Positions 21,144 through 23,731 of a stretch of DNA of 64,000 bases are shown piece by piece. The stretch is from an uncultured Sinobacteraceae bacterium. GTDB taxonomy: Bacteria; Pseudomonadota; Gammaproteobacteria; Nevskiales; Nevskiaceae. The notes under the pieces were generated by a model. That model saw nothing but the letters and a program-made list of their open reading frames with translations, was not told the origin of the DNA and made no database searches. The position numbers and the translations under genes were made by a program. Location: assembly GCA_903822975.1 (NCBI GenBank), contig CAIJRD010000017.1, forward strand, positions 62,001 through 126,000, read 5' to 3'. Numbering within the stretch: the first letter of the stretch is position 1; the number at the start of each line of letters is the position of its first letter.

Positions 21144-21171
21144 TTGCGTTGCCAGCACGGATCGCTACACT
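21144..21171 (+). promoter_or_regulatory. Candidate sigma-70 promoter of panBC
   Basis: TTGCGT (21144-21149), 16-base spacer, TACACT (21166-21171). Transcription would start near 21178, so the two hairpins at 21206-21278 fall in the 5' leader. panD has a matching arrangement. Confidence 0.55.
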
Positions 21172-21205
21172 CGGCGCAACGCCGGGCTTGGCCGCGGCGT
21201 CTTAG

Positions 21206-21278
21206 GGGCGCATGCCTTGGTGGGCCGCCCGTCGCACCTCCATCTCGATGCCGGGCGCATGTCTTTCGTGGGCCGCCC
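21206..21278 (+). ncRNA. Tandem-hairpin leader element upstream of panB
   Basis: Two hairpins, 21206-21230 and 21253-21278, each with a GGGCG/CGCCC stem and a 15-16-base loop of consensus YATGYCTT-N(1-3)-TGGGC. The same pair occurs before panD (23245-23320) with different spacer sequences between the hairpins and one G-U for G-C change in a stem. Position between promoter and start codon suggests cis-regulation of pantothenate genes. The published 'pan' RNA motif has a similar genetic context, but I cannot compare its consensus here. Confidence 0.65.
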
Positions 21279-21305
21279 AGGTCATCTCGCAGCAGGACTA
21301 CAGAC

Positions 21306-21380
21306 ATGCAACTGAATCCAACGCGGTGCCGGCCGCTGCCGTGCGCCGTCGCCGGTCGTGGCGCATGGGGGCGGGCATGA
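21306..21380 (+). CDS. Candidate 24-residue leader peptide coupled to panB
   Basis: A short frame (MQLNPTRCRPLPCAVAGRGA...) with AGGA eight bases before its ATG. Its stop codon overlaps the panB start (ATGA, 21377-21380). The first eleven bases around the start, CATGCAACTGA, are the same as at the panD start, and the distance from the second hairpin (27 bases) is like that of panD (30). It may be a true coupled leader peptide or a relic of a copied panD 5' region. Nothing in the peptide itself suggests a function. Confidence 0.45.
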   Translation: MQLNPTRCRPLPCAVAGRGAWGRA

Positions 21381-22204
21381 GCGCGACCGCAAAACCCAGC
21401 AATGCAGTACAGGTTTCCGAACTGCGCCGGATGCGCGAGGCGGGCGAGAAGATCGCCTGCCTGACCGCTTACGACGCCAGCTTCGCATTGATCGAAGACC
21501 GCGCCGGCGTCGACGTGGTGCTGATCGGCGATTCGCTCGGCATGGTGATCCAGGGCCGCGGCACCACCACGCCCGTGACGGTCGCAGATATCGAATACCA
21601 CAGCCGCTGCGTGGCGCCGCATCTGCAGCGTGCATTCCTGGTGGCGGATCTGCCGTTTCTGTCGTTCGCCACGCGCGAGCGCGCACTGGATGCCTCGCAG
21701 CGTTTGATGCAGGGCGGCGGCGCGAAGATGGTGAAGCTCGAAGGTGGCCGCGAGCAGGCCGATATCGTCGAATACCTGTCGGTGCGCGGCGTCCCGGTGT
21801 GCGCGCACTTAGGTCTGCAGCCGCAGCTGATTCACAAGGTCGGCGCGTTCAAGGTCGCGGGCCGCGAAGATGCACAGGCCGAGGCAATGCTGCACGACGC
21901 GCGCGTGCTGGAAGCGGCCGGCGCCGATCTGTTGCTGCTGGAATGTGTGCCGGCGGCGCTGGCCAAACGCATCACCGAAGCGGCACACGTGCCGGTGATC
22001 GGTATCGGTGCTGGCCCCGATGTCAGTGGCCAGATCCTGGTGCTGTACGACATCCTCGGCATTTCGCCAGCGCTGTCGCACGGGCGCGTGCCACGCTTCG
22101 TCAAGAACTACATGAACGACAGCGCGACAGTCGAAGCCGCGATCCGCGCCTATGTCGCCGAAGTGAAGAGCGGTGCCTATCCCGCACCCGAGCACTGTTT
22201 CTGA
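21377..22204 (+). CDS. panB: 3-methyl-2-oxobutanoate hydroxymethyltransferase
   Basis: First committed enzyme of pantothenate synthesis: it transfers a hydroxymethyl group from methylene-tetrahydrofolate to 2-oxoisovalerate, giving ketopantoate. With the ATG at 21377 it has 275 residues. The Mg-binding LIGDSLGMV and the stretches ADLPFLSFA and KLEGG, and near the C-terminus the catalytic-site region GIGAGPDVSGQILV, are all conserved. A second in-frame ATG at 21365 is possible. panC follows after 66 bases, and the upstream leader carries the tandem hairpins. Confidence 0.97.
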   Translation: MSATAKPSNAVQVSELRRMREAGEKIACLTAYDASFALIEDRAGVDVVLIGDSLGMVIQGRGTTTPVTVADIEYHSRCVAPHLQRAFLVADLPFLSFATRERALDASQRLMQGGGAKMVKLEGGREQADIVEYLSVRGVPVCAHLGLQPQLIHKVGAFKVAGREDAQAEAMLHDARVLEAAGADLLLLECVPAALAKRITEAAHVPVIGIGAGPDVSGQILVLYDILGISPALSHGRVPRFVKNYMNDSATVEAAIRAYVAEVKSGAYPAPEHCF

Positions 22205-22270
22205 CGTGCGCCGCTCGTCGTCTGACATTGCGCGCATCAAAGATTTAAGCGAACGACGAGGCGCGCGCTG

Positions 22271-23128
22271 ATGCAGCTTGTGCACGACACCGCCGCACTC
22301 GATGCCGCATTACGGCCTGAGCGCGTGCGCGGGGCTCGGATTGCGCTGGTGCCGACCATGGGCAACCTGCACGAAGGGCACTTGAGCCTGATCCGCCGCG
22401 CGCGCGAGTTATCCGACTGCGTGGTGGTCAGCGTGTTCGTCAATCCGCTGCAGTTCGGTCCGAACGACGATTTCGATCGCTATCCGCGCACGCTGGAGGC
22501 CGACGCACGACTGGTCGCCGCGGAAGGTGCGCAGATTCTGTTCGCACCGGATGTCGCAGCGATGTATCCAGGCGGCTACCCGCCGGCAACGACGCTGAAG
22601 GTCGACGGACTGCTGAATCAGGTGCTGGAAGGCGCCTTCCGTCCCGGTCATTTCGATGGCGTGGCGACGGTCGTGAACATTCTGTTCAACCGCGTGCGCC
22701 CGGATGTCGCCGTGTTCGGCCAGAAGGATTACCAGCAACTGGCTGTAATCCGACGCATGGTGCTGGACCTCGGACTTGCGGTTGCCGTCGAATCCGCAAC
22801 AACCCTGCGTGCCGACGACGGCCTGGCCTTGAGCTCGCGAAATCAGTATCTGAAGCCGCCGGAGCGCGCATTGGCGCCCAAGCTGTACGAAGCGCTGCAA
22901 GCGGTTGCCGACGGATTGCGCAGCGGCCGGCGAGACTTCGATCAACTTTGCGCAACTGCGCGCGAGTCGCTTGAAATGCAAGGCTTTCGCCCGCAGTACT
23001 TGGAAGTGCGTGGGCCTGATCTGGCGGCGCCGGCGGCGCATCTGTCGCGTTTTGTCGTGCTGGCTGCGGCCTATCTCGGCAGCACCCGTCTGATCGACAA
23101 CCTGATCGTCGAATCGGTCGCAAATTGA
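22271..23128 (+). CDS. panC: Pantothenate synthetase (pantoate--beta-alanine ligase)
   Basis: Joins pantoate and beta-alanine with ATP through a pantoyl-adenylate. 285 residues, normal length. The nucleotidyltransferase signatures PTMGNLHEGHLSLIR (HIGH-type) and the later ALSSRNQYL (KMSKS-type, here LSSRN) are intact, as are VFVNPLQFGPNDDFDRYPR and FGQKDYQQL. It forms an operon with panB; panD further downstream appears to have its own promoter. Confidence 0.98.
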   Translation: MQLVHDTAALDAALRPERVRGARIALVPTMGNLHEGHLSLIRRARELSDCVVVSVFVNPLQFGPNDDFDRYPRTLEADARLVAAEGAQILFAPDVAAMYPGGYPPATTLKVDGLLNQVLEGAFRPGHFDGVATVVNILFNRVRPDVAVFGQKDYQQLAVIRRMVLDLGLAVAVESATTLRADDGLALSSRNQYLKPPERALAPKLYEALQAVADGLRSGRRDFDQLCATARESLEMQGFRPQYLEVRGPDLAAPAAHLSRFVVLAAAYLGSTRLIDNLIVESVAN

Positions 23129-23178
23129 GGATTCGGCGAGCCATTAGGGTCAAGTGTTCTATACAAATGCGAAACCGG

Positions 23179-23207
23179 TTGGCGTCTCGGCAAAACGTGG
23201 GTAGACT
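23179..23207 (+). promoter_or_regulatory. Candidate sigma-70 promoter of panD
   Basis: TTGGCG (23179-23184), 17-base spacer, TAGACT (23202-23207). The distance from the -10 box to the first hairpin (37 bases) is close to that in the panB leader (34 bases). Confidence 0.55.
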
Positions 23208-23244
23208 TCACTCCCCGCCGGCTGAGCCGACGCGGAACGCAAAC

Positions 23245-23320
23245 GGGCGTATGTCTTAGTGGGCCGCCCTCGATGTCCTAAATGTGTCAGATGCCGGGTG
23301 CATGTCTTTTTGGGCCGCCC
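23245..23320 (+). ncRNA. Tandem-hairpin leader element upstream of panD
   Basis: Hairpins at 23245-23269 (GGGCG/CGCCC) and 23296-23320 (GGGTG/CGCCC, a G-U pair keeping the stem). Loops match those before panB (ATGTCTT...TGGGC). The 26-base spacer between the hairpins is unlike the 22-base spacer in the panB leader, so conservation is confined to the hairpins and the bases just before the second one (GATGCC). The panD start codon lies 30 bases downstream with GAGG eight bases before it. Confidence 0.65.
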
Positions 23321-23350
23321 TGTATCAAAAAAGCCATTGAGGTATCTGCC

Positions 23351-23731
23351 ATGCAACTGACCATGCTCAAGTGCAAACTCCACCGCGCGCGCGTCACCCA
23401 CGCGGAACTCGACTACGAAGGCTCCTGCGCCATCGACGGTCGTCTGCTCGATCTCGCCGGCATCAACGAGTACGAACAGATCCAGATTTACAACGTCGGC
23501 AACGGCGAGCGTTTCACCACCTACGCGATTCGCGCTGAAAACGGCAGCGGCATCATTTCGGTCAATGGTGCGGCCGCGCACAAGGCGCGCGTCGGTGATC
23601 GCGTGATCATCTGCAGCTATTGCGAGCTCGATGCGCGCGAAGTCAAGCTGCACAAACCGAAGCTGGTGTACCTGGACGAAGGCAATCGCGTGACGCGAAC
23701 GGCCAATACGATTCCGGTTCAAGCGGCCTAG
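23351..23731 (+). CDS. panD: Aspartate 1-decarboxylase proenzyme
   Basis: Makes beta-alanine from aspartate for pantothenate synthesis. The 126-residue proenzyme self-cleaves between Gly24 and Ser25 in YEGSC to form the pyruvoyl group, and that site is intact. Also conserved are the Lys9/Tyr22 region, the [17 protein letters not shown] core and the Tyr and Arg residues of the active site. In enterobacteria this enzyme depends on PanZ for cleavage; no PanZ is seen here. It completes the panBCD set and ends at a strong terminator. Confidence 0.98.

Follow-up and report, generated by a model that had tools for sequence, protein, structure and literature searches.

A tandem-hairpin RNA in the leaders of panD and panB in the Nevskia family, with a probable role in translation

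The pantothenate synthesis genes of the Nevskia family carry in their leaders an element that, judged by comparison of related genomes, is a real structured RNA. We describe it from a window of 64,000 nucleotides (nt) of DNA from an uncultured Sinobacteraceae bacterium (contig CAIJRD010000017.1), in which two copies of a small bulged hairpin precede panD and two more precede panB. Comparison of relatives places the two units just 5' of the ribosome-binding site at panD and, in two genera, at panB too. The element probably acts on translation, as its position relative to the start codons suggests, and it would constitute a new family of RNA, an analog of the published pan motif that is apparently unrelated to it. 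The explanation that we favor, with moderate confidence, is that it is a cis-acting tandem translational operator in the 5' leader of the pan mRNAs, bound by a putative regulatory protein. An earlier note on this DNA had already proposed an RNA switch or protein-binding leader that controls translation of the pan genes. The covariation, the geometry, a flank-swap test and the layout of a short upstream open reading frame (uORF) now support a conserved, covarying RNA leader with a probable effect on translation.

The four hairpins of the window lie where the earlier note had placed them, as the pattern searches, the covariance model and the folds all confirm, and the distances from the hairpins to the start codons and purine sites, read directly, are those it gave. 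The pattern GGGYGNATGYCTTNNTGGGCCGCCC, with up to 3 mismatches, matches three of the four hairpins, against a mean of 0.01 and a maximum of 1 in 100 shuffles; the hairpin that it misses is the copy with one additional loop base before panB. In the whole genome to which the window belongs (4.46 Mb), ATGYCTTN{2,4}TGGGCCGCCC occurs four times, always at these hairpins, and a covariance model at an expectation value (E) of 0.1 or less returns the same four and no others. Folded alone, each window hairpin forms a basal stem of 5 base pairs (bp), a 3-nt 5' bulge, a further 4 bp and a loop of 4 to 5 nt. The unit can be written as a 5' bulge NAU, a 4-bp apical stem GYCU/GGGC and a loop of the UNNU type. 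These single-hairpin folds change the status of the sequence ATGYCTT...TGGGC: the letters are shared, as had been reported, and what had been called a loop is mostly the apical stem with the NAU bulge.

Support for the structure arrived with the wider set of sequences; smaller alignments gave little covariation. RNAalifold found changes on both sides in none of 17 pairs for the first 35 leaders and in one of eight pairs for 58 units, and the number of such pairs in the 58-unit alignment was reached in 71 of 500 shuffles. A unit model, R1, built from the 58 distinct units and run with filters off on 77 leaders, gave 160 matches; the best 150 correspond to the units in 75 leaders, with 114 lying 5' of panD and 36 lying 5' of panB. 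Across these 150 units (117 distinct rows), both partners change in three of the five basal pairs, with 42 both-side cells, a number reached in 0 of 500 shuffles, in an alignment that was fitted to the structure and with shuffles that leave relatedness in place. Sliding the partners by 2 to 3 columns still left 12 to 14 both-side cells, compared to 42 in the true register. The composition of one pair is C-G in 51 cases, U-A in 32, U-G in 31 and other in 2. A MAFFT alignment of 69 distinct tandems, which was not structure-fitted, gave 41 both-side cells and again 0 of 500 shuffles; the further pair types in it were no more numerous than in shuffles (311 of 500 reached the same number). While the basal pairs vary, three of the four apical pairs are invariant across the 117 rows, which is what is expected of a recognition site.

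Additional structure is found around the tandem. Hairpin 2 of the panD leaders stands on a lower helix without fixed sequence: with their true flanks the leaders have a mean of -5.67 kcal/mol, compared to -3.32 kcal/mol with swapped flanks, and the true flanks beat the mean swap in 45 of 51 distinct leaders (0 of 10000 permutations). The same test indicated no lower helix under hairpin 1 (22 of 52 better; 3244 of 10000 permutations). Usually a variable third hairpin, hairpin 0, seems to precede hairpin 1. The 30 nt 5' of hairpin 1 have a mean folding z score of -2.05 over 56 distinct leaders, with -0.07 for a control 200 nt further upstream; p is below 0.05 in just 54% of the leaders, so hairpin 0 is not clear in every one. 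Folding of the whole leaders of the window gave no significant difference from shuffles (z of +0.69 for panB and -1.00 for panD). In several leaders (L195 and L236 among them) the place just before hairpin 1 and after the promoter-like pair is taken by TGTGA-N6-TCACA, which resembles a CRP/Vfr box, with unrelated stems in other leaders. This palindrome could be a DNA site in some lineages. As some leaders carry this CRP-like palindrome and others have different stems there, we read the region as hairpin 0 only provisionally. Three further leaders (L242, L244 and L245) have a second inverted repeat, CGTGACGGAAGCGTCACG, between a TAAACT hexamer and hairpin 0.

The distribution of the element follows the family. 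Among 85 genomes of the order, R1 has a match at E 0.1 in 61, namely in 56 of the 58 genomes of the window's family, in the one genome of a neighboring family (f5) and, weakly (E 0.017 to 0.099), in 4 of the other 26. A pattern scan of named genomes found it in Nevskia, Solimonas, Hydrocarboniphaga, Panacagrimonas, Stagnimonas, Sinimarinibacterium, Fontimonas and Algiphilus. All 57 panD leaders examined, 56 from the window's family and one from f5, have exactly two units on the sense strand, and their stems carry compensatory changes; an absence of either the hairpins or such changes from relatives was what the earlier note had named as evidence against it. The geometry is narrow. The unit-to-unit distance is 46 to 53 nt (49 or 50 in 40 of the 57) with a linker of variable sequence, and the 5-bp stem of hairpin 2 ends 24 to 33 nt before the panD AUG in 56 leaders and 40 nt before it in one. 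Covarying stems in the leader and a fixed gene context, two marks of a cis-regulatory structured RNA, are both found here; as for its presence in a transcript, what was seen are promoter-like pairs upstream.

PanD was detected in 80 of the 85 genomes. The order's remaining four families supplied 23 panD leaders, all of which lack the hairpin pair; a single weak sense match about 280 nt before panD in one of them (L269; E 0.043 and 0.0091) we leave as chance. Matches of R1 away from pan genes within the order begin at E 0.007 (G004) and 0.015 (G020). In overlapping samples drawn from the class (369 genomes) and the phylum (398), which include the genome of the window, the matches of that genome were the only strong ones (best other E 0.0012), and none of the 3-kb loci fetched for weak matches outside the order contained a pan gene. 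A scan of wider genome contigs with the hairpin pattern yielded 67 stretches, 50 with pan genes and 16 without, the latter all outside Nevskiales. One occurrence, in Candidatus Adlerbacteria (L123, 1-400), lies inside a panD coding sequence, where it encodes GVCLNGPP close to the PanD NG motif, and is probably due to chance. Two genomes of the family, G017 and G063, lack the element. They are drafts of 91 and 90% completeness in which neither panD (at E 1e-10) nor panB (at E 1e-40) has a match; possibly they are pantothenate auxotrophs or simply incomplete. Another family of the order has genomes with only a divergent PanD of 40 to 42% identity (G044, G047, G082 and G084) and others with no PanD at E 1e-10 (G055, G056 and G060), a pattern in the sequences that suggests loss or replacement of panD there.

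At panB the element has a more restricted distribution and a different relation to the gene. By match counts it lies 5' of panB in 9 of 18 genomes of Nevskia, the genus of the window, and in 9 of 11 genomes of a second genus (g11, the Solimonas/Sinimarinibacterium group). The panB leaders read were 20 chosen ones, namely these 18 with the tandem hairpins and two of the second genus without. In the window, the ATG at 21306 does not lie in the panB frame, and ATGCAACTGA, which had been assigned to panB, instead opens a uORF of 24 codons whose stop overlaps the true panB start at 21377. All nine Nevskia leaders with the element have a start codon (ATG in eight, GTG in one) 24 to 28 nt past hairpin 2, followed by a uORF of 20 to 38 codons whose stop overlaps the panB start as ATGA (six) or GTGA (three), while panB itself starts 86 to 139 nt past hairpin 2. 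Full shuffles of the stretch produce this layout in 0.5 to 3.6% per leader. The uORF peptides begin with MQLN, MQLT, MQPT or MQAT in seven of nine (MSNT and MQNP in the others), like the MQLT of panD. The 65 nt past hairpin 2, a stretch that takes in the shared ribosome-binding and start region, are similar between panB and panD of the same genome, with z of 2.4 to 10 in eight of nine and 1.3 in G012 (letter shuffles); upstream, the similarity of the two leaders is uneven (z 0.3 to 5.9). The uORF relay is, on this comparison, a feature of Nevskia, and the fact that the layout can be read in all nine of its panB leaders points to control of translation initiation that is relayed by coupling. 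A uORF starting from the ATG in the hairpin core was also considered and rejected, as this codon is CTG or ACG in some copies and the frame is not kept.

A protein as the partner of the operator is suggested by the conserved part itself: a small hairpin with a bulge, in which few bases are free and which recurs at near-fixed spacing. The two cores would bind a dimeric or two-site candidate protein that reports pantothenate or coenzyme A (CoA) status. The geometry from hairpin 2 to the AUG, together with the lack of a terminator-like site between the hairpins and the start codons in either leader of the window, offers a place at which a factor, once bound, could get in the way of the 30S subunit. 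A protein on hairpin 2, the extended stem of which ends 24 nt before the panD AUG in the window, would then hinder that subunit, and the putative protein would be a repressor. That the bound hairpin 2 helps the 30S subunit instead is a less likely alternative. Nevskia may have acquired, 5' of panB, a copy of the panD leader together with the first panD codons, so that the copied start opens the short uORF; panB would be reached through translational coupling across the overlapping ATGA or GTGA, and the copy would have been kept as a relay.

Several observations weigh against a protein-bound operator with this relay. No regulator was found, and tandem units are compatible with a riboswitch as well. 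For panB of G004, G009 and G012 we selected a GTG start out of the candidates in frame; in G012 an in-frame ATG lies six bases before the chosen GTG. When the uORF start is kept and the rest shuffled, an open frame arises in 28 to 82% per leader; the nine Nevskia leaders are in addition related, so the layout is not as improbable as it would be if they were independent cases. The Solimonas group does not follow Nevskia: its nine leaders start panB 56 to 85 nt past hairpin 2, in five of them some open reading frame, of no shared form, ends close to the panB start, none has the Nevskia uORF layout, and the similarity of panB and panD downstream of the hairpins is low (z -1.4 to 2.0). Finally, the minimum-energy fold of the window's panB leader pairs hairpin 2 with the uORF start.

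This last pairing belongs to the argument for a tandem riboswitch, in which both hairpins would bind a metabolite of the pathway (pantothenate, beta-alanine, CoA or other) and alter access to the ribosome-binding site. In the window (21258-21309), GCAUGUCU of panB hairpin 2 and AGACAUGC at the uORF start are perfect complements, but the pairing is peculiar to the window: when the following 45 nt are compared with the 9-base core, the longest perfect complement measures 7 here and 0 to 5 in the other 17 panB leaders. The strong model matches are confined to panB and panD and the core with its bulge is invariant, both of which would suit a riboswitch; the unit, at just 25 nt with little unpaired sequence, does not. 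According to a 2022 review, no CoA riboswitch is known and orphan RNAs may conceal missing classes (PMC9971707). A riboswitch for pantothenate, beta-alanine or CoA would, if true, serve a ligand class without a known riboswitch. On balance we regard a riboswitch as unlikely, and slightly less likely still its full form, in which two 25-nt hairpins sensing pantothenate, beta-alanine or CoA were copied with the panD start so that panB is co-controlled through the coupled uORF. A role in RNA stability or processing, with the hairpins shielding the 5' end or setting an RNase cut and thus the level of pan mRNA, would agree with three successive hairpins often near the predicted 5' end; it has no need for an invariant apical core, near-fixed spacing or a near-fixed distance to the AUG, and we consider it improbable.

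The repeat spacing of about five helical turns could instead fit direct repeats in a DNA operator for a transcription factor, and several relatives have the TGTGA-N6-TCACA palindrome closely upstream. However, the repeats sit 3' of the promoter-like pair, and both the exchange of C-G, U-A and U-G at one pair and the lower helix of hairpin 2, which pairs without fixed sequence, are properties of RNA. Such an operator is therefore very unlikely. Hardly any probability, a shade less even than this, goes to kinship with the published pan RNA motif (RF01749), which had been left as a possibility in the earlier note. The pan motif consists mostly of tandem small hairpins before operons that include panB, panC or the gene for aspartate decarboxylase (Weinberg et al. 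2010, PMC2864571), so gene context and tandem arrangement are alike. The stems differ: alignments of Listeria and Enterococcus loci show a pan stem with two conserved bulged A residues, while our element has a single 3-nt 5' bulge NAU, an invariant-type apical stem GYCU/GGGC and a different sequence. The RF01749 covariance model found nothing in the genome of the window at E of 10 or less, in a search whose controls gave a match in 3 of 14 (Bacillus subtilis among them) and exceeded the cut-off in 1. Conversely, the unit model had no match on two loci with true pan RNAs, and no intermediate sequences were found in the class and phylum samples. Rfam 15 gave no match in ten leaders, only one tRNA in the window at the gathering score and, in the pan region at E of 10 or less, a sole match inside panC on the opposite strand, which scored 14.8 where the cut-off is 88.5.

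Operators of the bulged-hairpin type, among them phage coat-protein sites and the iron-responsive elements bound by iron regulatory proteins (IRE/IRP), are short hairpins that lie close to the ribosome-binding region and have a conserved bulge and loop. The element resembles them as a short bulged hairpin in that place and differs in having two units at near-fixed spacing, another sequence and a protein that is putative. ANTAR hairpins have their own loop consensus, and this consensus was not seen in the element. The ANTAR dual hairpins (PMC3369931) likewise are two tandem hairpins sharing a core; unlike them, the element has no terminator-like site past its second hairpin in the window.

Few ways of controlling pantothenate synthesis are known. 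The abstract of one paper states that none had been identified before PanZ (PMC4410942). In Escherichia coli and its kin, the feedback of PanZ (PanM) and CoA on PanD also controls the PanD step, there by CoA, but it is control between proteins and not by RNA. A PanZ model had no match in the genome of the window and, at E 0.001, matched 4 of the 85 genomes of the order, two of the matches being partial and barely over the cut-off; the element-bearing f5 genome is among the four. The element is a second, apparently unrelated tandem-hairpin RNA on pan genes, in a lineage where PanZ was mostly not found. By title or abstract opening, we found no description of a Nevskia-family pan element, and RNA-discovery papers had no relevant passage for the pan gene names or Nevskia, nor, for part of them, for Solimonas or Xanthomonadales; "undescribed" applies to the sources covered. 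The literature searched showed no identified partner for the pan motif. If confirmed, the element, being compact and highly conserved, would provide an RNA bait in the search for the regulator. It would also exemplify a regulatory start region duplicated in front of a second gene and connected to it through translational coupling.

The features of the locus are collected in Table 1. In the window, folK, panB, panC, panD and pgi are co-directional, and this gene order matches that of relatives.

Table 1. Features of the pan locus, in positions of the window
Feature	Position	Strand	Basis and remarks
Promoter-like pair TTGCGT-N16-TACACT, 5' of panB leader	21144..21171	+	Read in sequence; resembles pairs 5' of the panB elements of relatives
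Hairpin 1, panB leader	21206..21230	+	Pattern, fold; 40.8 bits (unit covariance model)
Hairpin 2, panB leader, with one additional loop base	21253..21278	+	Pattern, fold; 41.4 bits (unit model)
Shine-Dalgarno-like CAGGA, 8 nt 5' of uORF start	21293..21297	+	Read in sequence
uORF, 24 codons (MQLN...)	21306..21380	+	Reading frames; starts 27 nt past hairpin 2; stop overlaps panB ATG as ATGA
panB (ketopantoate hydroxymethyltransferase), 275 amino acids	21377..22204	+	Translation and homologues
panC (pantoate-beta-alanine ligase)	22271..23128	+	Translation; without element immediately 5'
Promoter-like pair TTGGCG-N17-TAGACT, 5' of panD leader	23179..23207	+	Read in sequence; counterparts in many relatives
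Hairpin 0, panD leader, variable sequence	23215..23235	+	Fold of 30 nt 5' of hairpin 1, z -1.75
Hairpin 1, panD leader	23245..23269	+	Pattern, fold; 47.6 bits (unit model)
Hairpin 2, panD leader	23290..23326	+	Conserved part 23296-23320 plus lower helix 23290-23294/23322-23326; 46.5 bits; flank-swap test
Shine-Dalgarno-like GAGG, 8 nt 5' of panD	23339..23342	+	Read in sequence
panD (aspartate 1-decarboxylase), 126 amino acids	23351..23731	+	Translation and homologues

Four terminator-like sites occur in the region; they lie within panB, within panC (where two overlap) or on the opposite strand. The promoter-like pairs that the earlier note had pointed out are present, although a scan at 9 of 12 consensus positions picked up neither of them; similar pairs in many relatives lend them support.

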